Source of the DNA: an uncultured Clostridia bacterium
Lineage (GTDB): Bacteria; Bacillota; Clostridia; Peptostreptococcales; Anaerovoracaceae
Direction: 5' to 3'
DNA length: 50,874 nucleotides
Assembly (NCBI GenBank): GCA_944382925.1
Contig: CALWNX010000052.1
Coordinates: forward strand, 1 to 50,874
The position numbers and the translations under genes were made by a program. Of the stretch, positions 9,901 through 38,145 are shown piece after piece (within the stretch, counting starts at the first letter, position 1; the number at the start of each line of letters is the position of its first letter). The notes below the pieces were generated by a model, which did not search any database, was not told where the DNA came from, and worked only from the letters and a program-made list of their open reading frames with translations.

Positions 9901-9912
9901 ATTTTACCCCTT

Positions 9913-11408: not shown

Positions 11409-11421
11409 CAACTGAAAATCC

Positions 11422-20979: not shown

Positions 20980-21858
20980 TTAATCCGCCTCGCGCATCAT
21001 CATGGCGATCGTAATGCGCGTGTTGGTTTCATAGGCGCGGAAAGGCTGGTGCAGAGCCCGCTCCTTGCTCCAGTACAGCTTCTTGTGCGCGGCAAAGATC
21101 TCATCGGCGGACTTGCCCTCCGCAATCAGGCGGCTATAAAAATCGCGTTCTTTTGTAGCGATATCAATATATATGTCAAAATATCGATCTTTAAGCTCAT
21201 CCGCTACAAAGCCGAAATGTGGTGTAATGATATCTTTGTGCGCAAGCAGGCGGCAAAAAAGCGCCGACTCGAAGCTTTCCTCAAAGCTCTTGAGCACGGA
21301 GGTGTGCATGCGGCCGCTGCTCTCAAGCACGCCTGTAGACTCGCTCGCAAGTAAGACCCCTGCCGGCGCCAGCAGATACGACATGCTGCAGTCGGTGTGC
21401 CCCGGCGTAGCAAAGCAGAGCAGCTCTTCATCCCCCAGCGAAACCACATCACCGCTCTCAAGCACACGGTCCACGCGCAGCCCAAAAGCCGTGATCTCTG
21501 ACGGATCGCGTCCGTAAGCCTCTGCTGCGCTTTGCCCCATGGATGCTATCATTTTGAGCGCGCCGGGTCGTGCGAATACCTCGCGGGCCTTGGCAGCGCC
21601 TAAGACCAGCGCCTGCGGCCAGCGCTTTAATATATAAGGTAGCGCGCCCACGTGATCGTAATGCGAATGTGAAATCACTATATAGTCGAGCGGGCGCCCG
21701 GCGAGCTCGCGCGTGAGGTTTTCCTCAAGCTCGCGGTGAAAGCAGGCCATGCCCACATCGTGCAGCGCCGTCCTTTCGCTGCCCAATATCAGGGTCGCCA
21801 GTCCGCCCGGACCACCGCTCACATCTTTTATCAGCCTGGCATACTGTTCCTTTACCAT
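20980..21858 (-). CDS. MBL-fold metallo-hydrolase
   Basis: A 292-residue metallo-beta-lactamase-fold protein. The metal motif HSHYDHVG is visible near residue 64, with a second-site region TPGHTDCSMSYLL and a late His in ITPHFG. The substrate is not evident; such proteins range from thioesterase-like hydrolases to flavodiiron partners. Its ATG at 21858 directly abuts the TAG of the EamA gene (zero spacing), with GGGGAG 9 bases upstream, so it is the last gene of the long minus-strand catabolic cluster. It converges with metY. Confidence 0.87.
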   Translation of the reverse strand: MVKEQYARLIKDVSGGPGGLATLILGSERTALHDVGMACFHRELEENLTRELAGRPLDYIVISHSHYDHVGALPYILKRWPQALVLGAAKAREVFARPGALKMIASMGQSAAEAYGRDPSEITAFGLRVDRVLESGDVVSLGDEELLCFATPGHTDCSMSYLLAPAGVLLASESTGVLESSGRMHTSVLKSFEESFESALFCRLLAHKDIITPHFGFVADELKDRYFDIYIDIATKERDFYSRLIAEGKSADEIFAAHKKLYWSKERALHQPFRAYETNTRITIAMMMREAD

Positions 21859-22776
21859 CTAGCCGTTCTCCCCTTTCCGCAGTCTGTTTTCTTTATATTC
21901 GCCGTAGCTGAAGAAAACAAGCCCGATCCAGATGATAGCAAAGGCGATCAGCTGCACGCTCTCAAACGGCTCTTTAAAGAGAAAGATACCGATAAAGAGC
22001 GATATAGTCGGCGAAATATATTCTGTCAGCCCCACCACGAAGAGATTGAGCTTGCGGGCGGCGCTGGCAAAAAGCCCTAGCGGCAGGGCGGTGACAATGC
22101 CGCACAGGAGCAGCAGAACAAATTTATGCGGCTCGCCTGCGGCCAGCGCACCCCGTCCGTTTAGCTCCAGATATACGATCACAGCCAGCGCCAGCGGCGC
22201 CCAGAAGACCGTTTCGTAAAACAGAGAAATCAGCGGCGGGAGCGAAAAGCTCTTCTTCGCTGCCGCATAGACGGCAAAGGTCAGCGCCACGCCCAGGGCG
22301 ATCAGCGGCACCTGCTTGAAATACCAGATCACGGCCGCCACGCCGGCCAGAGCAAAGCAAAGCGCGATCACCTTGTATGTGCTCAGTTTTTCCTTAAACA
22401 GGACGATACCGAAGGTGCAGACCACCAGCGGCTCGATATAATAGCCGATCGAAGTCTGGATCACAAAGCCGGCGTTGACCGCCCAGATGTATATCGACCA
22501 GTTGGCCGTGATCAAAAGCCCCGCCAGCGCATATTTTATCAACCCCTTCTTGTCCGCAAGAGGCGCCAGCACCTCCCGGCGTCCGTGGAAAACAAAGGCA
22601 GCTGCCGCACAGCAGACGGCCACCATCACGATGCGGTAGAAGATGATCACAAAGGAATCGATCGGCTTGAGCCACTGCCAGTAGATGGGCAGCACGCCCC
22701 AGAAAAGGCTGCAGCAGACGGCAGAGACCATGCCCTGCCGATATGCCCTGTTTTCTTCAGCAGCTATTTGTTCCAT
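21859..22776 (-). CDS. EamA/RarD-type transporter
   Basis: A 305-residue membrane protein of the drug/metabolite transporter superfamily with ten predicted helices. The N-terminal signature (GMVSAVCCSLFWGVLPIYWQ) and a late PTISLFIGIFLFKEPF match the RarD subgroup. Its substrate is unknown; by position it may export or import a metabolite of the surrounding pathway. The ATG at 22776 overlaps the enolase-like gene by 13 bases but has no clear ribosome binding site. Met16 (22731) is an alternative start that would bring the length close to other RarD proteins. Confidence 0.88.
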   Translation of the reverse strand: MEQIAAEENRAYRQGMVSAVCCSLFWGVLPIYWQWLKPIDSFVIIFYRIVMVAVCCAAAAFVFHGRREVLAPLADKKGLIKYALAGLLITANWSIYIWAVNAGFVIQTSIGYYIEPLVVCTFGIVLFKEKLSTYKVIALCFALAGVAAVIWYFKQVPLIALGVALTFAVYAAAKKSFSLPPLISLFYETVFWAPLALAVIVYLELNGRGALAAGEPHKFVLLLLCGIVTALPLGLFASAARKLNLFVVGLTEYISPTISLFIGIFLFKEPFESVQLIAFAIIWIGLVFFSYGEYKENRLRKGENG

Positions 22777-24050
22777 TTGATAAACGGCGTAAAGTCAAAC
22801 GGCTTTGAACCTTCTATCTCGCTCTCAGCCCTCAGCAGAGAGTTAACGATATGGATGGCATGACCGAATTTAGGCGGTCCCAGCTTGACGGCAGCCGCCC
22901 CGCCGGCCGTACCCATGTCGGCCACCGGATCGTCGCTGACACCGCCGGCTCTGATCGACGGAACGGAGAACATACCGTGCTCGATCGCATACTTCTGCGC
23001 CGCCATCGCCTCGGTAACGGTGCCCACCTGATTAGGCTTGAAGATGAAGGAACCGCAGGCTCCCATTTCCACAGCCTTCTTGAGCTTTTCGATATTGGTC
23101 ACCGTCAGATCGTCGCCGCAGAGCGTAGTCCTGGTGAGGATCTTGGCCGCCTTGGCCCAGCCCTCCCAGTCGTTCTCGTCGAGCGGGTCCTCCAGATAGA
23201 GGAAGTTGTATTTTTCCGTCGCTTCCTTGAGGATGCCGATCACCTCGTCGGTGTCGATCTCGCGGCCGCAGTAGTTGTAAGTCTTTCTCTCGGCGTTGTA
23301 GATCTCGCTGAAGGCGCAGTCCATGTGGAAACCGATCTTGTTCTCGCAGCCCTCGCGCTTGCAGGTCTCAAAGAGAATATCAAGGCAGTCCATGAATTCC
23401 GTGGAAGGAGCCATATACTCGGACATGGCGCCGATCTCCGGCCTTCTGCCGCCCTGAAATTCGCGGATCACCTCCGGCAGGCGCTTATAAACCTTGCAGA
23501 GGATGGCCGTCGCCTCTTCGATCGATTTGGCCTTATACGGAATGATCGTGCACTCCTGCACCGGCATGGTGTTTTCTTCATAGCTGCCGCCGGCAAACAT
23601 GTCAGAGGTCGGCAGCGGAATGGTCTTGATCTCGCCCTCAGCCAGGTACTTGTACTGCGGCACGTGCAGAATATTGCAGGCAGCGCGCATTACGGCCATC
23701 GAAGTGCTGTAGGTGGTGTTGCCGCCCAGCTTCGACTTGTTAGGCGTGCCGTCGAGCGTAATCAGCGCCTCGTCGACAGCCTTCTGATCGAGCACGTCGA
23801 GCCCTCTGATCGCCGGCAGCACTACTTTTTCCGCCATTTCCACAGCCTTATAGACGCCGTTGCCGTCGTACCAGGACTTGTCGCCGTCTCTGAGCACAAA
23901 GGCTTCATGTTCGCCGGCCGAAATGCCGGACGGAGAAGCTCCCCGTCCCATAACGCCGTCTTCCGTATATACATCCACCTCCAGCAGCGGCTTGCCCTTG
24001 CAGTCGATGAGCGCCCGCGCTTTAAGATCCTTGATCGCAGTTCCCTTCAT
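22764..24050 (-). CDS. Divergent enolase-superfamily protein (enolase-like)
   Basis: A 428-residue protein that aligns with enolase over its whole length (ASPSGISAGEHEAFVLRDGD, LDGTPNKSKLGGN, YLEDPLDENDW, GDDLTVTN). By eye against E. coli enolase, the three metal ligands (Asp in HMDCAFSE, Glu in LEDP, Asp in CGDDL), the base Lys in FKPNQVGT and the Lys in AVKLG are kept. The His of GGEHA is Tyr (GGSYE), the catalytic Glu segment VGDEGGYAP is IGAMSEYMAP, and SHRSG is SIRAG. It may therefore not perform the standard 2-phosphoglycerate/PEP reaction. AAGGAGG stands before the ATG at 24050. It lies 10 bases after the DUF4147 kinase-like gene, suggesting linked substrates. It is unlikely to be the housekeeping eno. 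Confidence 0.85.
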   Translation of the reverse strand: MKGTAIKDLKARALIDCKGKPLLEVDVYTEDGVMGRGASPSGISAGEHEAFVLRDGDKSWYDGNGVYKAVEMAEKVVLPAIRGLDVLDQKAVDEALITLDGTPNKSKLGGNTTYSTSMAVMRAACNILHVPQYKYLAEGEIKTIPLPTSDMFAGGSYEENTMPVQECTIIPYKAKSIEEATAILCKVYKRLPEVIREFQGGRRPEIGAMSEYMAPSTEFMDCLDILFETCKREGCENKIGFHMDCAFSEIYNAERKTYNYCGREIDTDEVIGILKEATEKYNFLYLEDPLDENDWEGWAKAAKILTRTTLCGDDLTVTNIEKLKKAVEMGACGSFIFKPNQVGTVTEAMAAQKYAIEHGMFSVPSIRAGGVSDDPVADMGTAGGAAAVKLGPPKFGHAIHIVNSLLRAESEIEGSKPFDFTPFIKWNK

Positions 24051-24060
24051 GATTTCCTCC

Positions 24061-25473
24061 TTATTTCTTCTCGCCCACGTAGAGCACATTAAAGTCGCAG
24101 AGATTGGTACCGGTGTTGCCGGTAAAGAGCCCGTCCTTGATGGCAGTCAGCGCCTCGTAGCAGGCGTGTCCCTCAAGCTGGCGGCGCAGGTCGACGCCGG
24201 CTTTTTTCGCGGCCGCCATCGAAGTGCTGTCCGTCACGCCGCCGGCATTTTCGCAGGTGCCGTCCGTGCCTTCGGAATCCATGGAAAGCATGCAGCAGTT
24301 AGAAAGCCCCAGCTCGTCGGCCATGATGGCAAACGAAGTGACCAGCTCCTGCGAAGGTCCGCCGTGACCGGTGATCTCGTCGTCTGCGCCGATGGCCGTC
24401 GTCGTCTCGCCGGCGGAAAAGATCAGGCACGGAGCCTTGAAAGGTCGGCCCGTCATCTGGATTTCCTTGGCCAGCGTCGCCATAAAAGTACCAAAATCCT
24501 TGCTTTCTCCCGAAGCATAGGTCGTCAGCACGTGAGCGTCCACGCCCATCTCGTTTGCCACATCCATCGCATGGCGGCAGGAATCAGGCATGGTGTTGAC
24601 GATGTAATAGTCGACGTCGTTGCTCATCTCCTGCGGCGTCTCTTCCTCCGGGCCGGAATTCATCAGATAATTGGCCACGCTCTTTGGCAGCTTGTCCTCG
24701 ATGTTGTATTTTCTGATGATCGCCCTGATGTCCTCAAATGTGATGGTGTCGTAGCCTACCGGCGTGCCCATGATCGGCACCGGATACGAATAATCGGTGA
24801 TGTCGTCGAGGCCGACGGCGTCCCAGATCTCAAAGCAGAAAATCTTCGCGCCCTTGATTCTCTGGCCGAGACGGCCGCGGCTCATGCGCGAAAGATGACC
24901 CCTTATATCGTTGATGTCCATCACCCACATGCTGTTTTTGAGCATCACGTCGGTCGCTTCCTTGAGGTCGTCGAGGGAAACTCCTTCGACCGGATAACCC
25001 ATCAGCGCCGAGCAGCCGCCGGTCAGTCCCAGCAGCAGGAGGTCGCGCTCGTTCATCTGATCGGCCAGCTCCAGCATGCGCTTGCAGCCTTCGATACCCT
25101 CCTTGTTCGGCAGCGGATGGCCGCCGACGAAGATCTCCGTCTTCTTCAGTGTCTTGACATCGATTTCTTCCTTGATCTTGATGATCGTTACGCCGGCAGT
25201 GAGTCTGTCGCCGAGAATTTCCTCAAAAGCCCTGGCCATGTGGTTGCCGGCCTTGCCGGAGGAAAAGGCGTAGACGCGGTCGTACTTGTTCAGATCCACC
25301 ACCTGATGACCGATGGTCAGCGTATCGCCCTCGCGCCTGATAAATCTCTTGAAGTATTTATAGACGTCGAGCCTGTCGAGCACCTCGTCGGTCACCTTTA
25401 AAACGGTCTCTCTCGCCTCTCTGTCGCCGTGCGACAGCAGCGTTTCGTAATTCTTGATTTTTTCAAACTGCAT
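24061..25473 (-). CDS. DUF4147/MOFRL glycerate 2-kinase-like protein
   Basis: A 470-residue protein with the DUF4147 N-terminal domain (FSSGKAGNHMA, GGHPLPNKEG, LTGGCSALM) and a C-terminal MOFRL domain (SAGETTTAI, GHGGPSQELV, DSEGTDGTCENAGGVTD, TGTNLCDFNV). Characterised members phosphorylate D-glycerate at C2. Here the neighbouring enolase-like protein has an altered active site, so the true substrate may be another hydroxy acid. The ATG at 25473 has AAAGG 8 bases upstream and overlaps the etfA end by 11 bases; the GTG three codons earlier is less well placed. Confidence 0.88.
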   Translation of the reverse strand: MQFEKIKNYETLLSHGDREARETVLKVTDEVLDRLDVYKYFKRFIRREGDTLTIGHQVVDLNKYDRVYAFSSGKAGNHMARAFEEILGDRLTAGVTIIKIKEEIDVKTLKKTEIFVGGHPLPNKEGIEGCKRMLELADQMNERDLLLLGLTGGCSALMGYPVEGVSLDDLKEATDVMLKNSMWVMDINDIRGHLSRMSRGRLGQRIKGAKIFCFEIWDAVGLDDITDYSYPVPIMGTPVGYDTITFEDIRAIIRKYNIEDKLPKSVANYLMNSGPEEETPQEMSNDVDYYIVNTMPDSCRHAMDVANEMGVDAHVLTTYASGESKDFGTFMATLAKEIQMTGRPFKAPCLIFSAGETTTAIGADDEITGHGGPSQELVTSFAIMADELGLSNCCMLSMDSEGTDGTCENAGGVTDSTSMAAAKKAGVDLRRQLEGHACYEALTAIKDGLFTGNTGTNLCDFNVLYVGEKK

Positions 25474-26422
25474 TTGCTTCACCTTTCTTTTCCTGCAAAG
25501 CTTTGATCAGTGCAGGCAATATATTTTCAAGATTTCCCACGATGCCAAGATCCGCAATATCGAAGATAGGCGCGGCGGGATTCTTGTTGATAGCGATTAT
25601 ACATTCTGCATCCTTCATGCCGGTCACATGCTGGATGGCTCCGGAAATTCCGCAGGCGATATAAAGCTTGGGATGCACGGTCCTGCCAGTCTGGCCTACC
25701 TGCATTGAAGCATCGGCCCAGCCGGCTTCTATACAGGCTCTGCTGGCCGCTATCTCGCCGCCGAGCAGCTCAGCCAGCGTTTTCAGCTGTTCAAAGCCGC
25801 CGCAGCTGGCAATGCCGCGCCCGCCGGCCACGAGGATATCGGCCTTGGTGATATCGACGCCCTGCTTCTTTTCTGCCCGTTCGTCAAGGAGACTGATCAG
25901 CTTCGCTGATGCCTGCTGTGCGGCAGAAACCATCCTTAGCTCCCCATCTGCGGGTATGAGCTCCGCTGCCCTGCCGGCGGCAAAGACTCCCGGTCTTACT
26001 GTCGCGATCAGGGGGCGGCCGCCGCTTGTGCCATAGATCAGCTTTTCACTGCCGGCGGCATTTGGCCGCAGCGGACAAAAGCCGTATTCTGCCTCAAATC
26101 TGACCTCCGTGCAGTCGCAGAGCAGGCCGGCGGAAAGCTTTTCTGCCAGCAGAGCGCAAAAACCGCTGCTGAGAGAGCTGGCACCCATCAGGATCAGCTG
26201 CGGGGCGACCTTGCCAAGCCTGGCAGCTGCCTCGTCCGCAAAAGAAGCCGGATCATAGTCGGGCAGAGTGCTCTTGAGCACCAGGCTTTCAAGTACCGCG
26301 CCATATGTCTGTGCCAGAGCTGAAGCGCCGGCCAGCACCTCACGCGAAAGCGGCGTTAAATTTCCGCCTTGCTCCTCCAGTATTACCGCAATTGTGATCA
26401 TATCGCTGTCATGCTTTGTCAT
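25463..26422 (-). CDS. etfA: Electron transfer flavoprotein alpha subunit
   Basis: A 319-residue protein. The C-terminal FAD-binding domain is clear: LVAGGRGI, VGQTGRTVHPKLYIACGISGAIQH, IIAINKNPAAPIFDIADLGIVG. It pairs with the EtfB encoded upstream to pass electrons between NADH or ferredoxin and the acyl-CoA dehydrogenase of the same operon. Whether the complex bifurcates electrons cannot be read safely from the sequence. The gap to etfB is 37 bases, the largest inside this part of the cluster, and the ribosome binding site (AAGAAAG) is weak. Confidence 0.93.
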   Translation of the reverse strand: MTKHDSDMITIAVILEEQGGNLTPLSREVLAGASALAQTYGAVLESLVLKSTLPDYDPASFADEAAARLGKVAPQLILMGASSLSSGFCALLAEKLSAGLLCDCTEVRFEAEYGFCPLRPNAAGSEKLIYGTSGGRPLIATVRPGVFAAGRAAELIPADGELRMVSAAQQASAKLISLLDERAEKKQGVDITKADILVAGGRGIASCGGFEQLKTLAELLGGEIAASRACIEAGWADASMQVGQTGRTVHPKLYIACGISGAIQHVTGMKDAECIIAINKNPAAPIFDIADLGIVGNLENILPALIKALQEKKGEANAV

Positions 26423-26459
26423 GCTTTCTTATCTCTTTATATCTGCTCTGAATATACGC

Positions 26460-27176
26460 CTACAGCATATGCTGCTCTGTAATTTCAGCGATGAGCTGCC
26501 GCACAGCTTCATCCGTTGAAACTGCGGTCAGCAGCCTGCCACGCTTGCGCCCCTGTGCCTTTTCGCGCCCGCGCACCTCTGCGCGGACGCTGCTTCCTTC
26601 GCACTGCACCGATATAAGCTCAATCTCGCGCGCATAAGCTCTGTTGATGCCCGCCACAGTCTTATAGACCGGCGCCTCGGGATGCGGCAGCACGCTGGCC
26701 AGACACGGCGTGCTGACTGAGAGCGTCTGCACTCTGCCGTCAGCCTTTCTGACTACCGTCAAAGCAGTCCCCTCCTGTGCATGCTGGATACTGTCGACAT
26801 GCGAAACGAAGGGGATACCCAGCTTAACCGCTGTCAGCAAACCCGTCGCAGCAGTATCCGCATCGAGAGGAAAGCTGCCGCTGAGCAGCAGCGTAAAATC
26901 TTCCTCCTGCACATGCTCGGCAAAGATCCGGGCGAAAGCGGCAGCGTCGGGCTCAGCCTGATCCGAAAGATCCAGAGCGCGCCCATCATCTGCTCCCATG
27001 GCGATCGCCTCGCGCACCTGCTGCACGGCTTCCTTTGCGCAGCCGAGGACGAGGACAAAAACACTTGCCTCGCACCCGGGCTGCGCCTTCAGCCGCAGCG
27101 CCGCTTCGACGCCGCTGTAGTCGTATCTCGTTTCACCGTCGGCCTTGACCTGCCGGGCCAGCACGATGATCCTCAT
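26460..27176 (-). CDS. etfB: Electron transfer flavoprotein beta subunit
   Basis: A 238-residue EtfB-type protein beginning MRIIVLARQVK, with the nucleotide-site region EAIAMGADDGRALDLSD and the partner/cofactor loop near FPLDADTAATGLLTAVKLG. It forms the heterodimer with EtfA. It is somewhat diverged from textbook EtfB in the AMP/FAD-binding loop (usual DxxTAQVGP is DADTAATGL). It begins one base after the acyl-CoA dehydrogenase stop with no clear Shine-Dalgarno sequence, so translation is probably coupled. Confidence 0.9.
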   Translation of the reverse strand: MRIIVLARQVKADGETRYDYSGVEAALRLKAQPGCEASVFVLVLGCAKEAVQQVREAIAMGADDGRALDLSDQAEPDAAAFARIFAEHVQEEDFTLLLSGSFPLDADTAATGLLTAVKLGIPFVSHVDSIQHAQEGTALTVVRKADGRVQTLSVSTPCLASVLPHPEAPVYKTVAGINRAYAREIELISVQCEGSSVRAEVRGREKAQGRKRGRLLTAVSTDEAVRQLIAEITEQHML

Positions 27177-27177
27177 T

Positions 27178-28317
27178 TTATCTGAACAATGCGCCGCTGA
27201 TTACCAGCTTCTGGATCTCGTTCGTTCCCTCGTAGATCTGCGTAATCTTGGCGTCTCTCATCATGCGCTCTACATGGTACTCCCTCATGTAGCCGTTGCC
27301 GCCCAGCATCTGCACCGCCTCTGTCGTTACGTGCATCGCCGCGTTCGTGCACACCAGCTTCGCCTTCGCCGCCGGAATCGTGTAAGGTCTTCCCTCAGAC
27401 TTGTCAAGCGCAGCCTTGTATACCATGTACTTAGCCTGCTCGATCTCGCACTCAAGCTCCGCCATCTTAAAGGCCAGATGCTGGTTGCGGTAGATCGGCT
27501 TGCCAAACTGCTCCCTCGTCATCAGGTACTTCCTGGCTATCTCAAAGGCTCCCTCAGCTATGCCAAGCCCCTGCGCCGCTACGCCGATCCGCCCTCCGTC
27601 GAGCGCCTTCATCGCCTGCTTGAAGCCTGTGCATTCCTCGCCGATCAGCGCGCTCTGCGGTATCTCGCAGTTCTCAAACACCAGCTCCGATACCTGCGCC
27701 GCCCGGATGCCCATCTTGTTCTCGATCTTGCCGATCGTAAAGCCCGGCGTCCCCTTCTTTACATGGAACAGCGATAAGCCCTTCTGCCCCAGCTCCGGGT
27801 GCGTCAGCGCGTATACCGCAAAGTGCTCTGCCAAAGGCCCGTTGGTGTTGAAGCACTTGAGGCCGTTGAGCACGTATCTGCCGTCCTTCTTTGTCGCCGT
27901 CGTAACGCAGCCGCCCGCATCAGAGCCCGCGTTTGGCTCAGTCAGGCCAAAGCCGCCCAGCGCCTTTCCCGAGAAAACATCCGGCAGAAATTCCATCTTC
28001 TGCTCTTCTGTGGCTCCGTTATATATACTGCCGCCGTAAAGAGACATCGCTACCGAGTAGGAAATTCCCAAAGATGCGTCGACCTTGGAAATCTCCTCGA
28101 CGCAGAGCGCATAGTCGAGGTAGTCGCCGCCCGAACCGCCGTATTTCTCCTCATACGGCAGGCCGACATAGCCCATGCTGCCCAGCTTCTTGTAAAGCTC
28201 AAGCGGATACTCGCTCTTTTCGTCTCTCTCGATCACTCCCGGCAGAAGCTCCTTCTCGGCAAATTCTCTTACGGCCTGCTGAAGCGCCTGCCTTCTCTCT
28301 GACAGTTGAAAATCCAT
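27178..28317 (-). CDS. Acyl-CoA dehydrogenase (short-chain type)
   Basis: A 379-residue flavoprotein. The FAD-contact signature FGLTEPNAGSDAGG and the catalytic base Glu363 in IYEGTNEIQKL are in the positions used by short-chain/butyryl-CoA dehydrogenases. With EtfAB encoded immediately downstream it probably acts as an enoyl-CoA reductase, as in the acryloyl-CoA or crotonyl-CoA reductase complexes of anaerobes. An AAGGAGG ribosome binding site precedes the ATG. Neighbouring CoA-transferases and a CoA ammonia lyase suggest that its substrate is an enoyl-CoA made by deamination. Confidence 0.95.
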   Translation of the reverse strand: MDFQLSERRQALQQAVREFAEKELLPGVIERDEKSEYPLELYKKLGSMGYVGLPYEEKYGGSGGDYLDYALCVEEISKVDASLGISYSVAMSLYGGSIYNGATEEQKMEFLPDVFSGKALGGFGLTEPNAGSDAGGCVTTATKKDGRYVLNGLKCFNTNGPLAEHFAVYALTHPELGQKGLSLFHVKKGTPGFTIGKIENKMGIRAAQVSELVFENCEIPQSALIGEECTGFKQAMKALDGGRIGVAAQGLGIAEGAFEIARKYLMTREQFGKPIYRNQHLAFKMAELECEIEQAKYMVYKAALDKSEGRPYTIPAAKAKLVCTNAAMHVTTEAVQMLGGNGYMREYHVERMMRDAKITQIYEGTNEIQKLVISGALFR

Positions 28318-28344
28318 TTTCTTCTCTCCTCCTTAAAATCATCT

Positions 28345-29511
28345 TTACTGCGGCAGTCCGAACATGCCGTTTCTCTCGTGCAGCACGACGCCGCGCTTTT
28401 TCAGCTCGTCCATGTATTCCTGCGGGTCATAGACCTGATCCGGCGTGCGGATGCCCGCCTGATCGATGCCCTTGGCCAGAAGCTGCACGCCGACCGACAT
28501 CGAGCAGGCCGTGCTGCGGGCATAGCTGGCGATCTCGCCCCACTCGTCCTGACCCGGCGTTTTGGTGTAGAAGCGCAGCTCCGTTTCCTTGCCGTCAAGG
28601 ATACCCTTGCAGTCCACCACCAGCGAGAAGCCCCACAATTCTTCTTTCTTGAAATCATCGTTGGCAAAGATGAATTTCTCGATAAATTCTATCGGCGCGA
28701 TCTCGGTATCGCCTACTTTGATCGGCCTGGTAGTAAAGAAGCCGTAATCGTTGAGGAATTTGAGCATCCTGTGCTGACGCGGCGTCCAGGCGCCTCTGAT
28801 CGTGCAGACCTTGACAGAAGGCATCGTCATCGGGATGGTATATACTTCATTGTGCGGCACGTAATAGGCCGGCTGCGGGCCGAACGGCTCCGGAAAATCA
28901 ACGATTTTTTCGCCTGAGAACGGGCCGACATAATGCTGCTTTCCGCCCTCGTAATAGCTGCGGCCACCCTCGTTTGGATCGAGCTCCCACAGCGTGGTGC
29001 GCACCAGCCCCGGCGCCGTCTGGATGGCGCGGAAAGAAGCGAAGGCGATATGCACCTCGTCGAGGCGGTCGAGCTTCTCGTTGGCATAAGATGCGATCAT
29101 GTTGGAGGTGCCCGGCGAAATGCCGTCGCAGACTACGAACAGCAGTCCCTTCTCCTCCAGCAGGCCGTTCATCTTAAGCTGATCCTTGGTCGCGCCCAGA
29201 TCGGTGCCGGTCACGCCGGCCTCCACACAGCACTGCGTAATATACGTATCAAATTCAAACGGCAGGCAGTTGCAGACCAGATCGTAACCGTCTTTCATCA
29301 GCGCCACGACGGAGGCCTTGTCCTTTACCTGCACTTCGCGGGCGTCAAAGCGAGGATCGTTTAGCGATGCGACCAGCTCCCGCGCTTTTTCGTAATCGCC
29401 GTCCGCGACGGTAATCTTCTCAAATTCGCTGGTGGCCGCAAGGTCGCGAACAACCTCCGCGCCGATGAGGCCGCAGCCTCCCAGGACCAGCAGTTTCTTT
29501 AATTTCAGCAT
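28345..29511 (-). CDS. Saccharopine dehydrogenase-like NAD(P)-dependent oxidoreductase
   Basis: A 388-residue protein starting with a Rossmann motif (KKLLVLGGCGLIGAEVVRDL) and continuing as the saccharopine-dehydrogenase family (NCLPFEFDTYITQCCVEAGV, TDLGATKD, DGISPGTSNMIA). Known relatives act on saccharopine or other N-linked amino acid conjugates, or on carboxynorspermidine. Here it probably oxidises or reduces an amino acid intermediate of the cluster; the substrate is unknown. It has a strong GGAGGGAG site and lies between the PLP-enzyme and acyl-CoA dehydrogenase genes with short gaps. Confidence 0.87.
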   Translation of the reverse strand: MLKLKKLLVLGGCGLIGAEVVRDLAATSEFEKITVADGDYEKARELVASLNDPRFDAREVQVKDKASVVALMKDGYDLVCNCLPFEFDTYITQCCVEAGVTGTDLGATKDQLKMNGLLEEKGLLFVVCDGISPGTSNMIASYANEKLDRLDEVHIAFASFRAIQTAPGLVRTTLWELDPNEGGRSYYEGGKQHYVGPFSGEKIVDFPEPFGPQPAYYVPHNEVYTIPMTMPSVKVCTIRGAWTPRQHRMLKFLNDYGFFTTRPIKVGDTEIAPIEFIEKFIFANDDFKKEELWGFSLVVDCKGILDGKETELRFYTKTPGQDEWGEIASYARSTACSMSVGVQLLAKGIDQAGIRTPDQVYDPQEYMDELKKRGVVLHERNGMFGLPQ

Positions 29512-29523
29512 CCTTCTCCCTCC

Positions 29524-30717
29524 TTATGCGTGCGCCGCGTCGCGTATGCGCTCAAGCGCCCTGGCCAGTACGGTCCGTGAGCAGGCCAGATTCAGGCGCA
29601 CGAACAGCTCGCCCGCGCTGCCGAACTCGTAGCCCATACACGGCTCGACCTTTGCTTTATTGTAAAAGAAATCCGCAAGCTCCCTGCCGTCCTTACAGCC
29701 CAGGCCGCTGCAGTCCACCCAGACCAGATAGGTGCCCTGGGAAGGAACGGCTTTAAGCTCAGGCAGCTTGGCCGCGAGAAAATCATAGAGATACTGCTTG
29801 TTGCCGTCTACATAGGCGATAGCCTGATCGAGCCACTCTTCGCAAGCAGGATCACCGTAGGCCACCTCCGTCGCCAGCGCGCCGAATATATTATCGAGCC
29901 TCGTCTGCGCGATGCCAAGCTGCTTCTCAAATTCCGCTCTTTTTTCTGCATCGGCCAGCACCAGCGTCGAGGTCTGAAAGCCGCCGAGATTGAAGCCCTT
30001 GTTGGCCGAATAGCAGGACAGGGAATTTTTCGCCGCCGCCTCGCTGAGCGAATAAAACGGCACATGGCCCTTGTCCTTGGCGATGAAATCGGCATGGATC
30101 TCGTCGGAAACGACGAAGACGCCGTATTTTTCTGCCAGCTCCGCGATTCTCCCAAGCTCCTCGCGCGTCCACACGCGGCCCGAAGGATTGTGCGGATTGG
30201 AGATCGTCATCATCTTGACGTCTCCGCCCTTGAGCTTTGCTTCCAGATCGTCAAAATCAATGCGCACAAGGCCGTCCTCGCCGATAACAAGCGGAGACTC
30301 CACCAGCGTGCGGCCGCTCTTGGGTATCATTTCAAAGAGCGGATCGTAGTTCGGCATCAGCAGCAGAACCTTATCGCCCTTTTCCGTCAGCATGTTCAAA
30401 ATGATATCTATCGCAAAGACCACGCCCGGCGCCGCATAAGTCACCCATTCCTTCTGCGGCTGGCAGCCGAAACGCCTCTGCTGCCAGGAAAGGAACAGCT
30501 CGGTGTGGTTGCGGCTCCTGACAGGATAGCCGTAAAGTCCGTGCTCGGCTCTTTTGACTACAGCCTCGACGATCGGATCGGCGCAGCGAAAATCCATATC
30601 CGCCACCCACATGGGAATCAGCTGTCCGTCTGCGAGACCGTGCTCGTCGCGGTACCACTTATAAGAATCCGTGCCCTTCCTGTTAATGATCGTATCAAAA
30701 TCGTATTTTTTCGTCAT
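29524..30717 (-). CDS. MalY/PatB-type PLP-dependent enzyme (C-S lyase or aminotransferase)
   Basis: A 397-residue class I/II aminotransferase-fold protein of the MalY/PatB subgroup. The region MWVADMDFRCADPIVEA is typical of it; NPHNPSGRVW, VVSDEIHADF and the Schiff-base Lys in SANKGFNLGGF follow, with the late Arg in RLNLACSR. Characterised members are cystathionine/cysteine C-S lyases, but aminotransferase activity is possible. In this cluster an amino-group reaction on a pathway intermediate is the likely job. The ATG at 30717 begins 1 base after the upstream CoA-transferase stop, using GAGGGGG within its end. Confidence 0.88.
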   Translation of the reverse strand: MTKKYDFDTIINRKGTDSYKWYRDEHGLADGQLIPMWVADMDFRCADPIVEAVVKRAEHGLYGYPVRSRNHTELFLSWQQRRFGCQPQKEWVTYAAPGVVFAIDIILNMLTEKGDKVLLLMPNYDPLFEMIPKSGRTLVESPLVIGEDGLVRIDFDDLEAKLKGGDVKMMTISNPHNPSGRVWTREELGRIAELAEKYGVFVVSDEIHADFIAKDKGHVPFYSLSEAAAKNSLSCYSANKGFNLGGFQTSTLVLADAEKRAEFEKQLGIAQTRLDNIFGALATEVAYGDPACEEWLDQAIAYVDGNKQYLYDFLAAKLPELKAVPSQGTYLVWVDCSGLGCKDGRELADFFYNKAKVEPCMGYEFGSAGELFVRLNLACSRTVLARALERIRDAAHA

Positions 30718-30718
30718 G

Positions 30719-31942
30719 CTAGGCCCCCTCATATTCACAAGTCTGGATTACGCCCTCTGCCTCAAGCGCGGCGATCTCCTCCTCCGTATAGCCAAGCTCG
30801 GCGAGCACAGAGGAAGTGTTCTCGCCCAGCTTCGGCGAGCTTCTGTATACGTCGGCCGGCGTCTTTTCAAATTTAATCGGATGACCGACGGCCTTGAACA
30901 TACCGACGTTGTGGTCGTCGATTTCAAGCACCATATCGCGCTCCTGCATGTGCTGCGACTCTATCGTCTGACCGGCATGAATCACAGGACAGGCGGCAAA
31001 GTGACGACCCGAGAAGCGCTCCTCTATCTCGTCCTTTGAAAGCGCGGCAAAGACCTTCTTCATCTCCTCGATCAGCGCCTCATTGTGCCGGCAGCGCAGC
31101 TCGTTGGTGGCAAACCTTTCGTCAGCCAGCAGATCCTCACGGCCGCTTTCGTGGCAGAATTCCGCAAAGCCTTGATCGGTAATGGCCGAAAAGGCGACCC
31201 AGCCGTCCCTGCACTGCACCACGTCGTAAGGCGAATAAAGGTGCGTGCGGCTGTTGCCCTGGCGCTTTAGCATGCGTCCGTTGCCGAAATATTCGAGAAT
31301 CGTGTCCTCGATCGAGGCAAAGAGCGCATCCTGCATCGCCACGTCTACGGTCTGTCCTTCGCCTGTCATCAGCTGATGATAATAGGCGCAGGCCGTACCA
31401 AAGGCTGCCATCAGGCCGGTGTAGCTGTCGCCGATCGAGCAGCCCGACCTGATCGGCTGTTCATCGGGCAGGCCGGTCTGATCCATGAGGCCGCAGGTTG
31501 CTTCGATCACATTGTCGTATGCAGCCAGCGATGCCATGGGGCCATCCTGTCCGTAACCGGTGATCGAGGTGAAAACGAGCTTTGGATTGATCTTTTTCAG
31601 CTCTTCATACCCAAGTCCCAGCCTGTCGAGCGTGCCGACCTTGAAATTGTTGACAACTATATCGGCCTTGCCCGCCAGCTTTCTGATGATTTCCGCTCCG
31701 CGCGGATCGCGCATATTGACGGCGATGCCCTCTTTATTTCTGTTATAAAGCGCATAATAGCCGCTTTCACCCTTATGCGGGCCGGATTTCCTCAGCGGAG
31801 ACCACTCTCTTGTCTGATCGCCGCTGCCAAGTCTTTCGACCTTGATCACGCGCGCGCCGTAGTCGGCCAGATTGAGCGTGCAGTACGGGCCGCTGAAGGC
31901 CTGTGTAAAGTCAAGTACGGTGACTCCCTCAAGTGGCTTCAT
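30719..31942 (-). CDS. Class III (CaiB/BaiF) CoA-transferase, catalytic-type subunit
   Basis: A 407-residue class III CoA-transferase. It begins with the usual LEGVTVLDFTQAFSGPYCT and has VKVERLGSGD, NRNKEGIAVNMRDPRG and the active-site Asp172 in GCSIGDSYTGL, aligning with the catalytic Asp of CaiB. It would exchange CoA between carboxylates, for example a product acyl-CoA and the incoming acid. Its ATG overlaps the stop of the second CoA-transferase gene (ATGA), so the two are made together and may form a heteromer. Confidence 0.93.
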   Translation of the reverse strand: MKPLEGVTVLDFTQAFSGPYCTLNLADYGARVIKVERLGSGDQTREWSPLRKSGPHKGESGYYALYNRNKEGIAVNMRDPRGAEIIRKLAGKADIVVNNFKVGTLDRLGLGYEELKKINPKLVFTSITGYGQDGPMASLAAYDNVIEATCGLMDQTGLPDEQPIRSGCSIGDSYTGLMAAFGTACAYYHQLMTGEGQTVDVAMQDALFASIEDTILEYFGNGRMLKRQGNSRTHLYSPYDVVQCRDGWVAFSAITDQGFAEFCHESGREDLLADERFATNELRCRHNEALIEEMKKVFAALSKDEIEERFSGRHFAACPVIHAGQTIESQHMQERDMVLEIDDHNVGMFKAVGHPIKFEKTPADVYRSSPKLGENTSSVLAELGYTEEEIAALEAEGVIQTCEYEGA

Positions 31943-33093
31943 TCTGCGTCCCTCCTTATCGTTGCCAGGATTTCTTCGTTATCCTCTCCCAGCCGCGGCG
32001 CCGGCTTGGAAACGCTGCCCGGCGTAGCTGAAAGCTTGGCGACGATGCCGGGCATCTTCACCTCGCCGACCACCGGGTCAGGCACGGCAATCACCATCTG
32101 GCGATGCTTGAGCTGCTCGCTGTCCATCGCCTCGCGGGCCGTGCAGACCGAGCCGCAGGGGATCTTGCGGGCAGAGAGGATTTCTTCTATCTCAAATTTT
32201 GTCATTTTCTGCGTGATGGCCTCGATCTTATCTCTGAGACCGCCGTCCAGATAATGCTCTCCGCGCAGCGAGTTGGTAGCATAGCGCGGATCGCCCAAAA
32301 GCTCTTCAAGTCCCAGCGCGCGGCAGAATTTTTCCCATTGCTCGTCGGTCGAGACGCCGATGGAAACAAAGCCGTCTCTGGTCGCATATGTATCGTAAGG
32401 GGCGATCGCCTGCGACATGTTGCCGTTTCTGATATGCTGATGGCCGTTAAATTCGATGTCCACCATGCCGTCCTCCAGTACGGAAAACAGCGAGTCTGCG
32501 GCGGAAACATCGACGCGCTGGCCTTCTCCGCCCTTGCGCACGTTGATCACCGCCAGCACGATGCCCAGCGCCAGGTGCATGCCTCCGTAAAGGTTGCCCA
32601 GCTGCGCGCCCATCGTGATCGGCGCGCCGCCGCCGTAGCCCGTCATGTCAAGCATGCTGCTCGCGGCCTGCGCCGTATTGTCAAAGCAGGCTCTTTCTTT
32701 CTTCTGCCCGAAACGGCCGTAGCCCGTCAGCGTGGCATAGACCAGCTTGGGGTTGATGGCGCTGAGGACCTCATAGCCAAGGCCCAGCTTTTCCATGGTG
32801 CCGCAGCGGAAATTTTCGCAGACGACGTCGACGTCTCTGACGAGCTCCCTGATGACGTTTTTTCCTTCTTCAGTCTTGAGATCCAAAGCGATGCTCTTCT
32901 TCCCCCGGTTCAGGTAGGCGTGATATGCGCTGTAGCCGTCGATCTTGGGCGCCAGGGAGCGCAGCAGATCTCCGCTCTCCGGCTTTTCTACCTTGATGAC
33001 TTCGGCGCCGAAATCAGCCAGCAGCATGGTGGCAAAGGAAGCGCCGTGAACCTGTGAAAAATCCAGCACCCTGATTCCTTCTAATGCCTTCAT
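31939..33093 (-). CDS. Class III CoA-transferase-like subunit lacking the active-site Asp
   Basis: A 384-residue CaiB-family protein (LEGIRVLDFSQVHGASFATM, VIKVEKPESGD, YLNRGKKSIALDLKTEEG). Where the family and its neighbour have the catalytic Asp (IGDSYTG), this protein has Asn167 (LGNLYGG). It is therefore probably a non-catalytic or altered partner subunit; heteromeric class III transferases such as BbsEF are known. The start at 33093 matches the family N-terminus, but AAAGGA is 11 bases away. An ATG at 33129 with AAAGG 5 bases upstream is a possible alternative that adds 12 residues. Confidence 0.87.
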   Translation of the reverse strand: MKALEGIRVLDFSQVHGASFATMLLADFGAEVIKVEKPESGDLLRSLAPKIDGYSAYHAYLNRGKKSIALDLKTEEGKNVIRELVRDVDVVCENFRCGTMEKLGLGYEVLSAINPKLVYATLTGYGRFGQKKERACFDNTAQAASSMLDMTGYGGGAPITMGAQLGNLYGGMHLALGIVLAVINVRKGGEGQRVDVSAADSLFSVLEDGMVDIEFNGHQHIRNGNMSQAIAPYDTYATRDGFVSIGVSTDEQWEKFCRALGLEELLGDPRYATNSLRGEHYLDGGLRDKIEAITQKMTKFEIEEILSARKIPCGSVCTAREAMDSEQLKHRQMVIAVPDPVVGEVKMPGIVAKLSATPGSVSKPAPRLGEDNEEILATIRRDAE

Positions 33094-33145
33094 TATATAT
33101 TTGATCCTTTCCCTGTAATATAATGACATACAAGCCTTTCACAGT

Positions 33146-33175
33146 AAAAGCGTGTGACAATTGCCACACGCTTTT
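33146..33175 (-). terminator. Intercistronic terminator-like hairpin
   Basis: A perfect 11-bp stem (AAAAGCGTGTG/CACACGCTTTT, 8-base loop) begins 6 bases beyond the ammonia-lyase-like gene's stop. In the direction of transcription it ends in only four T before ACTG, so it is probably a partial terminator. It may lower expression of the downstream CoA-transferase to MBL genes relative to nhaC and the lyase. Confidence 0.5.
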
Positions 33176-33181
33176 GTCTGC

Positions 33182-33616
33182 TTAGAATCTCTTTTCCTGT
33201 TCTGCCCTAGGCTTTTTAACTACACAAGTGCCGGTACCGTCGCAGACGAGCACTGGCGGATCGAGAACCTCGAACCAATCCTCTTTGGAATGGTTGGCGA
33301 TCACCTTGTAGATCCTGTAGCCGTAGGTGCGCGAGCGGTTGCCCTCGCTCTCCAGCCAGAGGATCACTTCGATGGTATCGCCGGCAAACAGGCTGGCGCG
33401 GAAGTTACAGTTCAGATTGACGAGCAGCGAACCGTCGCCGTTATCTCTTCTGACGGTAAAATCAGTCAGAGCGTCTACCGCGAAAGCAACGATCTGCGGA
33501 CCCGAATACATGCCCTCGGCATAGTGAGTTCCCTCGTTGTTGGTCTTGTAGCGAAGCCTGATCTCTTTGACTTCAGGGCCGTAATCGTTGACGATTTCGA
33601 ACTTTCTCTCTTCCAT
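33182..33616 (-). CDS. Beta-aminoacyl-CoA ammonia lyase family protein (Acl/Kal-like hotdog)
   Basis: A 144-residue single-domain hotdog protein. The segments FAGDTIEVILWLESEGNRSR and PPVLVCDGTGTCVVKK closely resemble what I recall of 3-aminobutyryl-CoA ammonia lyase (Kal, lysine fermentation) and beta-alanyl-CoA ammonia lyase (Acl, about 145 residues). Those enzymes eliminate ammonia from beta-aminoacyl-CoA to give an enoyl-CoA. With CoA-transferases, an acyl-CoA dehydrogenase and EtfAB in the same cluster the role fits well; the exact substrate is inference. AGGAGG precedes the ATG. A hairpin lies on each side of the gene. Confidence 0.78.
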   Translation of the reverse strand: MEERKFEIVNDYGPEVKEIRLRYKTNNEGTHYAEGMYSGPQIVAFAVDALTDFTVRRDNGDGSLLVNLNCNFRASLFAGDTIEVILWLESEGNRSRTYGYRIYKVIANHSKEDWFEVLDPPVLVCDGTGTCVVKKPRAEQEKRF

Positions 33617-33647
33617 AGCTAAAAATCCTCCTAGTTAATTATATTTT

Positions 33648-33684
33648 ACAGGGCCGGAAGCTGCTTGCGCGGCTTCCGGCCTGT
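33648..33684 (-). promoter_or_regulatory. Intercistronic GC-rich hairpin between nhaC and the lyase gene
   Basis: A strong stem (GGCCGGAAGC at 33652-33661 with GCTTCCGGCC at 33672-33681, plus flanking ACAG/TGT pairing) lies just after nhaC. In the sense of transcription it is followed by AAAATATAATT, not a T tract, so it is not an intrinsic terminator. An mRNA processing or stability element is more likely. Confidence 0.5.
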
Positions 33685-33713
33685 TTGTAACTTATTCAGT
33701 TTGCTCTGTAAGC

Positions 33714-35279
33714 CTAGCCCTTGGTAGTGCCGTAATGCTTGCTCATGTAAGCCTTGTGAGCGATGAAGGCGAAGAGCCAGGAGCCGAAGATGGTGATAGC
33801 CATGCCGATGGCAGCGGACGGATAGAGGCCGATGCTGTCGTACAGGAGGCCAACCTCGATGAAGGCGATAGCCGAAGCGCCGGCTACGCATACTGCGTAA
33901 GGCAGCTGGGTACGAACGTGCGCCAGGTGGTTGCAGCTCGATCCCATGGAGGACAGTACAGTCGTATCAGAGATCGGGGAGCAGTGGTCGCCGAAGATAC
34001 CGCCGGCAACAACCAGACCGATAGCCGGTTCCATCGGAGCGCCGATAGCGGCGGCCAGAGGAATGGAGATCGGCAGGTAGATGGCGAAGGTACCCCAGGA
34101 AGTACCGGTGCAGAAAGCGGTGAACGCGCAAACTACGAACAGTACCACGAACATCATGGTCGGAGTCAGGAACTCCTGAGTGAGGCTGATAACGTAGTTG
34201 GTAGTACCAACAGCGTCGCAGACATCACCGATGGACCAGGCCAGAACCAGGATGCAGCAGCATTCCATCATGTTGGCAAAGCCGTGAGTTACGGCAGCGA
34301 TAGCTTCCTTAACAGTGTAAACCTTATCCTTGACAGTGTAGATGGCAGCTACAACGGTAGCGATGGCAAAAGCGGTTACCAGCGACTTCATGGAAGCGGC
34401 GTTGGCCATGGCCTCTGCTACGCCAACCTTCGGGAATCCGCCGGTCCACAGCAGTCCGCCGAAGATGAATACTACCAGCACGATGAGAGGAACTACCATC
34501 GAGGACAGTTTCGGAGTCGCACCCTCAGGGATTACGATCTCTCTGGTCAGACCCTCGGTAGCGTCTTCGTCAGCGATAACCTTGCCGGTCTCGGCAGCTC
34601 TCTTCTCAGCTCTCTCCATCGGACCGAAGTCAAAGCCGGTCACGGCGATGAAGTAAACGAGGATAACAGCGCCTACGGTGTAGAACATGAACGGTACGGC
34701 TCTGTTGAACATTACGATACCGTTGGCGTCATAACCGATGGACTCGAACTGCTGGTTCATAATGGACAGGATGTAGGCACCCCAGGAAGTGAAGAAGAAC
34801 ATGGACGGCATAGTGGCGGAAGTAGCGTCTACTATGTAAGCCAGCTTCTCTCTGGAAACCTTCATCTTATCGGTCAGCGGCTTGAATACAGGTCCGATCA
34901 GCACCGGGTTGGTGGAGTCGGAGAAGAAGATGATCGTACCGCCGAGGGCAGCCATCACCTGAGCTCCCTTTCCGCCCTTGATCTTGGCAGCCAGCGTATC
35001 GGCGAACACTCTGGCGCCGCCGCCGGTCTCCAGCAGGTACGAGAAGGATCCGCAGAATACTACCATGATGATAACGGCAGCGTTGTCCGGATTGCCCAGG
35101 GCATTAAACGTGTAATCGCCAAAAGCAGAATACAGACCTGCTAATGGATTGTAGTTGCTTACCAATGTGGCTCCTACCCAGACAGCTACGAACAGGGAAA
35201 CGAGTACCTGTTTGGTAGCCATAGCCAGGACGATGGCCAGTATTGGTGGCAGTAAGCTTAAAATACCAATAGTTTCCAT
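33714..35279 (-). CDS. NhaC-family Na+/H+ antiporter-type transporter
   Basis: A 521-residue membrane protein with about 12 helices. The family hallmark FGDHCSPISDTTVLSSMGSSCNHLAHVRTQLPYA is present near residue 440, as is FFSDSTNPVLIGPVFKPL. NhaC-type proteins exchange Na+ for H+, and some relatives carry amino or carboxylic acids (for example malate/lactate). At the head of a catabolic cluster, uptake of the pathway substrate or ion balance is plausible. TAGGAG precedes the ATG. It is the first gene behind the sigma-54 promoter at 35494-35509, with a roughly 200-base leader. Confidence 0.93.
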   Translation of the reverse strand: METIGILSLLPPILAIVLAMATKQVLVSLFVAVWVGATLVSNYNPLAGLYSAFGDYTFNALGNPDNAAVIIMVVFCGSFSYLLETGGGARVFADTLAAKIKGGKGAQVMAALGGTIIFFSDSTNPVLIGPVFKPLTDKMKVSREKLAYIVDATSATMPSMFFFTSWGAYILSIMNQQFESIGYDANGIVMFNRAVPFMFYTVGAVILVYFIAVTGFDFGPMERAEKRAAETGKVIADEDATEGLTREIVIPEGATPKLSSMVVPLIVLVVFIFGGLLWTGGFPKVGVAEAMANAASMKSLVTAFAIATVVAAIYTVKDKVYTVKEAIAAVTHGFANMMECCCILVLAWSIGDVCDAVGTTNYVISLTQEFLTPTMMFVVLFVVCAFTAFCTGTSWGTFAIYLPISIPLAAAIGAPMEPAIGLVVAGGIFGDHCSPISDTTVLSSMGSSCNHLAHVRTQLPYAVCVAGASAIAFIEVGLLYDSIGLYPSAAIGMAITIFGSWLFAFIAHKAYMSKHYGTTKG

Positions 35280-35493: not shown

Positions 35494-35509
35494 TGCAAAA
35501 AATGTGCCA
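35494..35509 (-). promoter_or_regulatory. Sigma-54 (-24/-12) promoter of the nhaC/CoA cluster
   Basis: Read on the minus strand, TGGCAC-N5-TTGCA matches the sigma-54 consensus exactly with the required GG-N10-GC spacing. Transcription should start near 35483. The leader to the nhaC ATG (35279) is about 204 bases and holds two hairpins: GGAGAG/CTCTCC at 35418-35435, and GCCGGC at 35382-35387 pairing with 35399-35404. No riboswitch class was recognised there. A sigma-54 activator gene lies about 1 kb upstream. Confidence 0.85.
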
Positions 35510-36389: not shown

Positions 36390-36420
36390 GACCGGCAACC
36401 TCCTTTAACAAAACAAAAAT

Positions 36421-37870: not shown

Positions 37871-37959
37871 CCTCTGCCTCCTGCTCAGGCTTGTGCTTAT
37901 ATTGTTACTGATATAATTATATCTTCTTAGCGCGGTCTTGGCAAGAAAAACAGGCAAAA

Positions 37960-38145
37960 TCAGAAGAGCCCGCCGAGAAGACCTCCGTTTTTGTTGTCGC
38001 TCGTAAGCAGGCAGTAGACGATCACGATCAGAATGATGATCCAGATCAGGTTGCCGCCGCTGTTTTCCTCGCAGCATTCCCGCGCGCACCTGTCGCGGCG
38101 CTCCTGCTCGCAGCAGTCCATAAAGTTATTATGTTCGCATCCCAT
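37960..38145 (-). CDS. Small cysteine-rich membrane protein (61 aa)
   Basis: A 61-residue protein with seven cysteines: six in the N-terminal half (GCEHNNFMDCCEQERRDRC, ECC) and one inside the membrane segment (LIWIIILIVIVYCLL). It ends in a Gly-rich tail (GGLLGGLF). It resembles small sporulation/coat-associated membrane proteins in layout only; no family is recognised. The ATG at 38145 is chosen because AAAGGAGG is 7 bases upstream; the reading from 38166 begins before that site. The ribosome binding site is locked in a perfect hairpin. Confidence 0.65.
   Translation of the reverse strand: MGCEHNNFMDCCEQERRDRCARECCEENSGGNLIWIIILIVIVYCLLTSDNKNGGLLGGLF

Follow-up and report, generated by a model that had tools for sequence, protein, structure and literature searches.

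A putative sigma-54-controlled operon for fermentation of a beta-amino acid through CoA-dependent deamination in a Clostridia bacterium

Introduction

The acryloyl-CoA pathway of Clostridium propionicum, which comprises Acl, Pct, and AcrCAB (PMC4832176), is one of several described systems that we compare here with an operon of 13 genes from an uncultured Clostridia bacterium of the family Anaerovoracaceae. The operon lies at positions 20980–35279 of a 50,874-nucleotide stretch of DNA, hereafter the window (contig CALWNX010000052.1 of assembly GCA_944382925.1). Like the C. propionicum pathway, it has genes for a coenzyme A (CoA)-transferase, a CoA ammonia lyase, and an AcrC-like dehydrogenase with an electron-transfer flavoprotein (Etf) pair. 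In contrast to that pathway, its CoA-transferase is a class III enzyme, probably of two subunits, rather than Pct; it has no lactoyl-CoA dehydratase, and no aldehyde dehydrogenase was found in the genome. It also adds genes for a saccharopine-dehydrogenase-fold protein (SDH), a MalY/PatB-type enzyme (MalY), a glycerate-kinase-like protein (GlyK), and an altered enolase (Eno). Lysine fermentation (KamA–KamDE–Kdd–Kce–Kal) also combines a Kal-type lyase with CoA transfer, but all of its other genes are absent from the cluster, and the lyase of the operon is a separate and distant relative of canonical Kal. In the Bva pathway for beta-valine (PMC4619459), CoA activation is likewise followed by NH3 elimination, but there it proceeds with an ATP-dependent ligase and enoyl-CoA-hydratase-like lyases, whereas the operon encodes a CoA-transferase and a hotdog-fold lyase.

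From this comparison and the analyses below we propose, with about even confidence, that the operon, under the control of sigma-54, serves to take up a beta-amino acid similar to beta-alanine and to ferment it. The window belongs to a 1.7-Mb assembly (G000) of 134 contigs that is approximately 93% complete (92.8%). All functional statements rest on sequence, and the genome searches covered samples of genomes. The open reading frames (ORFs) of relatives were called by a simple script that picks the longest ORF and that overlooked at least one gene, the phnW of G056, and neighbouring genes without a family search were labelled by reading their translations by eye.

Results

A preliminary description of the window reported 13 packed minus-strand genes running from an NhaC transporter to a metallo-beta-lactamase-fold (MBL) hydrolase, and all 13 ORFs were recovered at the same coordinates. 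From NhaC to MBL, the junction gaps are 97, 52, −4, −20, 12, 27, 1, 37, −20, −29, −13, and 0 bases (range −29 to +97), and five of the 12 junctions overlap, including EtfA–GlyK, GlyK–Eno, and Eno–EamA. The family labels given to the cluster genes also held under Pfam and NCBIfam profiles, and the reported absence of kamA, kamDE, kdd, and kce was borne out by the ORF and profile scan. The genes predicted to transfer CoA, eliminate ammonia, and reduce the product are as follows.

33182–33616, minus strand: Acl/Kal-like CoA-dependent ammonia lyase (Kal; hotdog fold, 4HBT), from NCBIfam Kal, PDB 4mtu, and motifs
31939–33129, minus strand: CaiB1, class III CoA-transferase subunit, catalytic Asp replaced by Asn (LGNLYGG); Pfam CoA_transf_3 and an alignment of 14 homologues
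30719–31942, minus strand: CaiB2, class III CoA-transferase subunit, catalytic Asp retained (IGDSYTG); Pfam CoA_transf_3 and alignment
27178–28317, minus strand: acyl-CoA dehydrogenase (Acd), AcrC-like enoyl-CoA (acryloyl-CoA) reductase; NF042972 AcrC, 92% identical in G002
26460–27176, minus strand: EtfB, electron-transfer flavoprotein beta; NCBIfam EtfB best and AcrB second, both below cutoff
25463–26422, minus strand: EtfA, electron-transfer flavoprotein alpha; NCBIfam AcrA best, below cutoff

Among the NCBIfam models, the lyase scored best against Kal (3.5e-19, 69 bits, under the cutoff of 160), and the protein has the HY...G..I and D..T[DE] motifs in common with canonical Kal and Acl. Membership in an unrelated group of hotdog thioesterases, which would have undercut the earlier description, is contradicted by the top PDB match, beta-alanyl-CoA ammonia lyase 4mtu (2.6e-7), and by a thioesterase model that scored far weaker than Kal. 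The protein is a hotdog lyase of the Acl/Kal type, as in the acryloyl-CoA pathway, distant from the described enzymes and below the equivalog cutoff; a separate canonical Kal is encoded on another contig of the same genome (G000:C35). For Acd, AcrC (NF042972) was the best of 22 families at 451.7 bits, with the cutoff of 640 not reached. The logic of CoA activation, NH3 elimination, and Etf-linked reduction is thus supported by the Kal/Acl homology and by the AcrC, AcrA, and AcrB matches. The parallels drawn earlier with beta-alanine and lysine fermentation stand for the former: the acryloyl-CoA route, and not lysine fermentation, is the closest described one, because AcrC is the top match of Acd, AcrA that of EtfA, and AcrB the second-best of EtfB. 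In G506, a lyase with 46% identity is followed by Acd, EtfB, EtfA, and a class I CoA-transferase, next to ORFs that read by eye as parts of a 2-hydroxyacyl-CoA dehydratase; by its gene content, this locus is a setting of the acryloyl-CoA pathway. A reductive half in which a beta-amino acid would be converted to its CoA ester, then to an enoyl-CoA with release of NH3, and finally to propionyl-CoA is well supported by these homologies.

In the 14-homologue alignment, Asn replaces the catalytic Asp in the CaiB1 proteins of G000, G002, and one copy of G660, and Asp is present in four other CaiB1 proteins. CaiB1 matched both subunits (A/B) of benzylsuccinate CoA-transferase (9fn0), and CaiB2 matched the structures of succinate-HMG CoA-transferase and benzylsuccinate CoA-transferase. 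This Asp/Asn split, together with the benzylsuccinate CoA-transferase matches, suggests that CaiB1 and CaiB2 form one heteromeric two-subunit transferase. Both genes, as described earlier, encode CoA_transf_3 proteins, and they probably represent one enzyme rather than two activation steps. The likeness to BbsEF (9fn0) lies in the pairing of class III subunits; in contrast to BbsEF, the heteromer here is a prediction, the CaiB matches reach only approximately 115–180 bits, and the context of the operon does not point to an aromatic substrate.

In G002, a close relative of G000 in the same genus, contig C48 carries CaiB1, CaiB2, MalY, SDH, Acd, EtfB, EtfA, GlyK, Eno, EamA, and MBL in the same order, with an extra membrane-protein gene between EamA and MBL and identities to G000 of 44–92%. 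The genes beyond MBL are also common to both genomes, so this synteny partly reflects a shared chromosomal position. G002 has a second lyase set, CaiB1–CaiB2–Acd–Kal–NhaC, without MalY and SDH. Its contig C46 is identical to JAFSHN010000072.1, from a Bacillota metagenome-assembled genome of goat rectum. In G013, from another genus, the genes are split between a locus with the order activator–NhaC–Kal–CaiB1–CaiB2–MalY–SDH and a second locus, 130 kb away, with the order activator–NhaC–GlyK–Eno–LarA. A divergent set in G714, a distant genome, reads activator–Acd–Kal–CaiB1–CaiB2–alanine dehydrogenase–NhaC–SDH and, after approximately 700 bases, Eno–GlyK with a short EtfA-like frame; alanine dehydrogenase stands there between CaiB2 and NhaC in place of MalY.

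Among 297 genomes of the family, a close lyase (at least 54% identity) occurs in G000, G002, and G013 only, a close SDH (at least 80% identity) occurs in the same three genomes, and no further carrier turned up in 326 genomes sampled from the order. Within 99 relatives, each of the three genomes with the close lyase has a close GlyK as well. The lyase, SDH, and GlyK genes are absent from the four other genomes of the genus, indicating that the operon is accessory. The expectation that the cluster genes would co-occur elsewhere therefore holds in part: the parts travel together when present, but the full set is rare (two genomes at one locus, one split, and one divergent). The conservation of the operon as more than a chance association is confirmed. 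Two further observations concern the relatives. EtfA and EtfB (window 25463–27176) are only 44–46% identical between G000 and G002, and the neighbouring Acd is 92% identical. In G660, genes that read by eye as protein B subunits of glycine/betaine reductase lie upstream of Kal–CaiB1–CaiB2 (L063:3778–6099, 8726–11600).

Two genes lie between CaiB2 and Acd.

29524–30738, minus strand: MalY/PatB-type pyridoxal phosphate (PLP) enzyme (beta-lyase or aminotransferase); TIGR04350, 368 bits, cutoff 340
28345–29511, minus strand: SDH, putative amine dehydrogenase of the saccharopine dehydrogenase fold (Sacchrp_dh N and C); Pfam, PDB 8deb, and alignment

The earlier label of SDH as saccharopine-dehydrogenase-like was correct in fold, but the protein appears to be an amine dehydrogenase of the carboxyspermidine dehydrogenase type. 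Its best PDB match was carboxyspermidine dehydrogenase (8deb), in which the catalytic triad is His-Glu-Glu (PMC10413350). SDH shares the fold, the His, and the second Glu with that enzyme, but in the alignment the full triad is replaced by H-N-E, with Asn for the first Glu, in the window, G002, and G013; other relatives read H-A-E or H-S-E, and one G660 homologue reads H-E-E. The context of SDH is also catabolic, not polyamine-biosynthetic. SDH relatives with 30–33% identity occur in 2-aminoethylphosphonate operons with phnS2, phnT, a permease gene, and phnX (L105, L142, L143, L144), and phnW is also present in those of G292, G604, and G056. 2-Aminoethylphosphonate is the phosphonate counterpart of beta-alanine. 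Less closely related SDH homologues occur in activator–NhaC–SDH cassettes, some of which adjoin iron alcohol dehydrogenase, aldehyde dehydrogenase, or alanine dehydrogenase genes (labels by eye), and these cassettes are likely to represent further amine-oxidising pathways. Because of its carboxyspermidine-dehydrogenase-type site and the 2-aminoethylphosphonate and aldehyde-enzyme neighbourhoods of its relatives, we read SDH as a putative enzyme that oxidises an amine, primary or secondary, with NAD(P) and that would yield an aldehyde by deamination or by cleavage of a secondary amine.

Our literature search found no described function for the SDH-fold gene of the 2-aminoethylphosphonate operons, and two candidate roles were set aside. 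SDH is not the NAD-dependent phosphonate racemase PbfF, since PbfF is a homologue of D-2-hydroxyacid dehydrogenases (PMC12366243). A role as a substitute for PhnW is weakened by the presence of PhnW beside SDH in G056, G292, and G604; among these operons, only that of G528 has no close PhnW beside SDH. Activator–NhaC–SDH–(SDH) cassettes recur in the family, often with a tandem SDH pair (L145, L146, L149, L150, L151).

Downstream of EtfA lies a kinase–enolase pair.

24061–25482, minus strand: GlyK, glycerate 2-kinase-like (DUF4147 + MOFRL) 2-hydroxy-acid kinase; Pfam, NCBIfam, PDB 1x3l and 2b8n
22764–24089, minus strand: Eno, altered enolase paralogue (enolase N + C); alignment with five glycolytic enolases and tree

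GlyK has both the DUF4147 and MOFRL domains, the conserved kinase motifs, and the glycerate kinase fold, with an NCBIfam glycerate 2-kinase score of 144 bits against an equivalog cutoff of 550. The description of Eno as altered was confirmed by alignment with the five glycolytic enolases, in which His159, Glu211, His373, and Ser375 are replaced by Tyr, Met, Ile, and Ala. Eno retains Ser39, Lys345, Arg374, Lys396, and the metal-binding acids, as expected of the enolase superfamily. In contrast to glycolytic enolases, its leaving-group and phosphate-side residues are replaced, it falls in a separate clade, and it lacks these four residues of the 2-phosphoglycerate site, passing the TIGR01060 cutoff by overall score only. 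With the general acid and phosphate-side residues gone, a 2-phospho acid that carries a different beta leaving group would be a fitting substrate. 3-Sulfolactate was rejected as a candidate because the cluster has no sulfite-handling enzyme. Eno is also not a spare glycolytic enzyme, because it has lost catalytic residues and no enolase of any kind was found in the other four genomes of the genus; no glycolytic enolase was found in the six genomes of the genus (G000–G005), all of which encode pyruvate kinase.

Rather than being oddities of this cluster, in which they were first noted, GlyK and Eno form a pair that is widespread in Bacillota and recurs in several families, in G051 and G042 without the lyase set. 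According to the motif at His373–Ser375, the altered enolases form several clades: SIRAGG (window, G002, G013, G051, and G042), SQRGGG (G013 and G202, where the copies stand in tandem and are accompanied by LarA and a TctCBA transporter), SGRAGG (G147), and SERSGE (G316, G119, G435, G457, and G714). The window clade received 100/100 support in the tree, and the altered sequences other than SERSGE stood apart from glycolytic enolases, with G147 on a long branch. The pair thus constitutes a separate recurring module that is apparently undescribed: our literature search found no paper that describes a glycerate kinase paired with an altered enolase, or the degradation of isoserine by such a route, and nothing on the LarA group adjoining GlyK–Eno. 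A supposed LarA neighbour of the pair in G051 reads instead as a CoA-transferase-like protein. At L106:4091–8139 and L107:8633–12672, two altered enolases of a different type lie in tandem downstream of GlyK, close to LarA and TctCBA.

The remaining features concern control, transport, and the distal end of the operon.

35495–35509, minus strand: sigma-54 (−24/−12) promoter TGGCACATTTTTTGC, 230 bases 5' of the NhaC start
36494–38089, minus strand: sigma-54-dependent activator, NCBIfam PrdR/AtoC/PrpR-like, just upstream of the operon
33714–35279, minus strand: NhaC-family transporter (NCBIfam), recurring beside Kal, SDH, or GlyK–Eno
21859–22776, minus strand: RarD/EamA-family membrane transporter; TIGR00688 above cutoff, 67% identical and syntenic in G002
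20980–21858, minus strand: MBL, metallo-beta-lactamase-fold hydrolase; Pfam Lactamase_B, 57% identical in G002, one gene farther off

The promoter before NhaC is the only zero-mismatch match to TGGCAC-N5-TTGC on either strand of the window, and a perfect sigma-54 site also lies 672 bases before the NhaC start codon of the NhaC–Kal operon in G013. A 57% identical homologue of the activator adjoins that operon, and comparable activators neighbour most Kal/CaiB or NhaC/SDH sets in relatives; the activator at 36494–38089 is likely to regulate the 13 genes. NhaC is the probable importer of the substrate, and the RarD/EamA protein possibly exports a product. A LUD-domain (LutC/YkgG-like) gene (Pfam) lies at 35784–36398, between the activator and the operon.

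Discussion

In the proposed scheme, NhaC would import the beta-amino acid, and the CaiB1–CaiB2 heteromer, with the catalytic Asp on CaiB2, would transfer CoA to it. Elimination of NH3 by the Acl/Kal-like lyase would then produce acryloyl-CoA or a closely related compound, which the AcrC-like dehydrogenase and EtfAB would reduce with NADH to propionyl-CoA. Transfer of CoA from propionyl-CoA to a further molecule of substrate would set propionate free to leave. More tentatively, an oxidative arm consisting of SDH, with or without MalY, may strip the amine from part of the substrate in an NAD(P)-linked reaction, supplying NADH and an aldehyde acid or released amine. In a second route, GlyK may phosphorylate the 2-hydroxyl of an alpha-hydroxy acid, and Eno may take the C2 proton (Lys345, metal site) and expel a beta group other than water, giving phosphoenolpyruvate (PEP) or an analogue for the pyruvate kinase encoded in the genome. 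The gene content, order, active-site states, and recurrence are observed, and each of these reactions is predicted from them. Unproven candidates for the substrate are beta-alanine or a 2- or N-substituted relative.

Several points weigh against this scheme. The Kal, AcrC/A/B, and glycerate kinase scores are all under the curated equivalog cutoffs, and the scheme gives no firm role to MalY, EamA, or MBL. In G714, approximately 700 bases separate SDH from Eno–GlyK, and in G013 the Kal–CaiB–MalY–SDH genes have no adjoining Acd–Etf and GlyK–Eno lie elsewhere, so that one shared pathway is not forced. Furthermore, no aldehyde dehydrogenase (PF00171) was found in G000 (92.8% complete) or G002 (75% complete). 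The classical oxidation of beta-alanine through malonate semialdehyde is therefore missing, and this favours either a different oxidative branch or a substrate that is not plain beta-alanine.

The arrangement in G013 speaks for the alternative that one promoter and one NhaC serve two unrelated modules, a beta-amino acid module (Kal, CaiB1/2, Acd, Etf, MalY, and SDH) and a hydroxy-acid module (GlyK and Eno). There, the two sets form separate operons, the GlyK–Eno operon having its own activator, NhaC, and LarA-type racemase, and GlyK–Eno stand without the lyase set in G051 and G042. However, the overlaps at EtfA–GlyK, GlyK–Eno, and Eno–EamA, the presence of both sets in the divergent G714 cluster, and the close GlyK in three of three close-lyase carriers (99 relatives) speak against it, and we give this alternative a modest chance of being right.

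Plain beta-alanine fermentation, with SDH as a beta-alanine dehydrogenase and GlyK–Eno only channelling glycerate from elsewhere, would account for the resemblance to AcrCAB and Acl and for the occurrence of SDH relatives in operons that act on 2-aminoethylphosphonate, the phosphonate counterpart of beta-alanine. Two findings make it fairly unlikely: no aldehyde dehydrogenase for malonate semialdehyde was found in G000 or G002, and Eno has neither the general acid Glu211 nor His373, which makes 2-phosphoglycerate an unlikely substrate.

Within the proposed scheme, isoserine (2-hydroxy-beta-alanine) or an N-substituted relative as the substrate would use all modules. A specific version, which we consider unlikely, is that the operon ferments isoserine or an N-substituted isoserine or beta-alanine, such that GlyK would make the 2-phospho ester and Eno would expel ammonia or an amine, rather than water, to yield PEP.

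A diamino acid pathway of the lysine or ornithine type seems improbable; in it, the lyase would take a longer beta-amino acid as its substrate, and oxidation of the terminal amine would fall to SDH. The best NCBIfam model of the lyase is indeed the lysine-pathway Kal, and the SDH fold includes lysine 6-dehydrogenase (PMC10413350). However, that enzyme has no H-E-E site (PMC10413350), which SDH largely keeps, the cluster has no aminomutase, cleavage enzyme, or diaminohexanoate dehydrogenase, and the genome has its separate canonical Kal (G000:C35). Catabolism of a thiol or cysteine conjugate led by a PatB-type C–S lyase, with the remaining genes serving to process the acid set free, is highly improbable: MalY/PatB passes its curated cutoff (TIGR04350) and an apparent O-acetylhomoserine sulfhydrylase adjoins the cluster (19635–20918, read by eye), but no sulfur enzyme lies inside the operon, and MalY is missing from the second G002 lyase cluster and from that of G714, where alanine dehydrogenase occurs.

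Under the proposed beta-amino acid fermentation, the operon would be a further case among the few CoA-dependent deamination fermentations known from gut anaerobes, and it points to an unrecognised substrate. The relatives of SDH suggest an amine-oxidation route in 2-aminoethylphosphonate and related operons. If the isoserine version were true, a glycolytic-type enolase would have turned into a C–N lyase, as one of a broader family of kinase and altered-enolase pairs that open various 2-hydroxy acids in gut Bacillota. The altered enolases carry different active-site signatures across several Bacillota families, and the kinase and altered-enolase module provides a testable example of how a central enzyme of glycolysis can be put to new chemistry.

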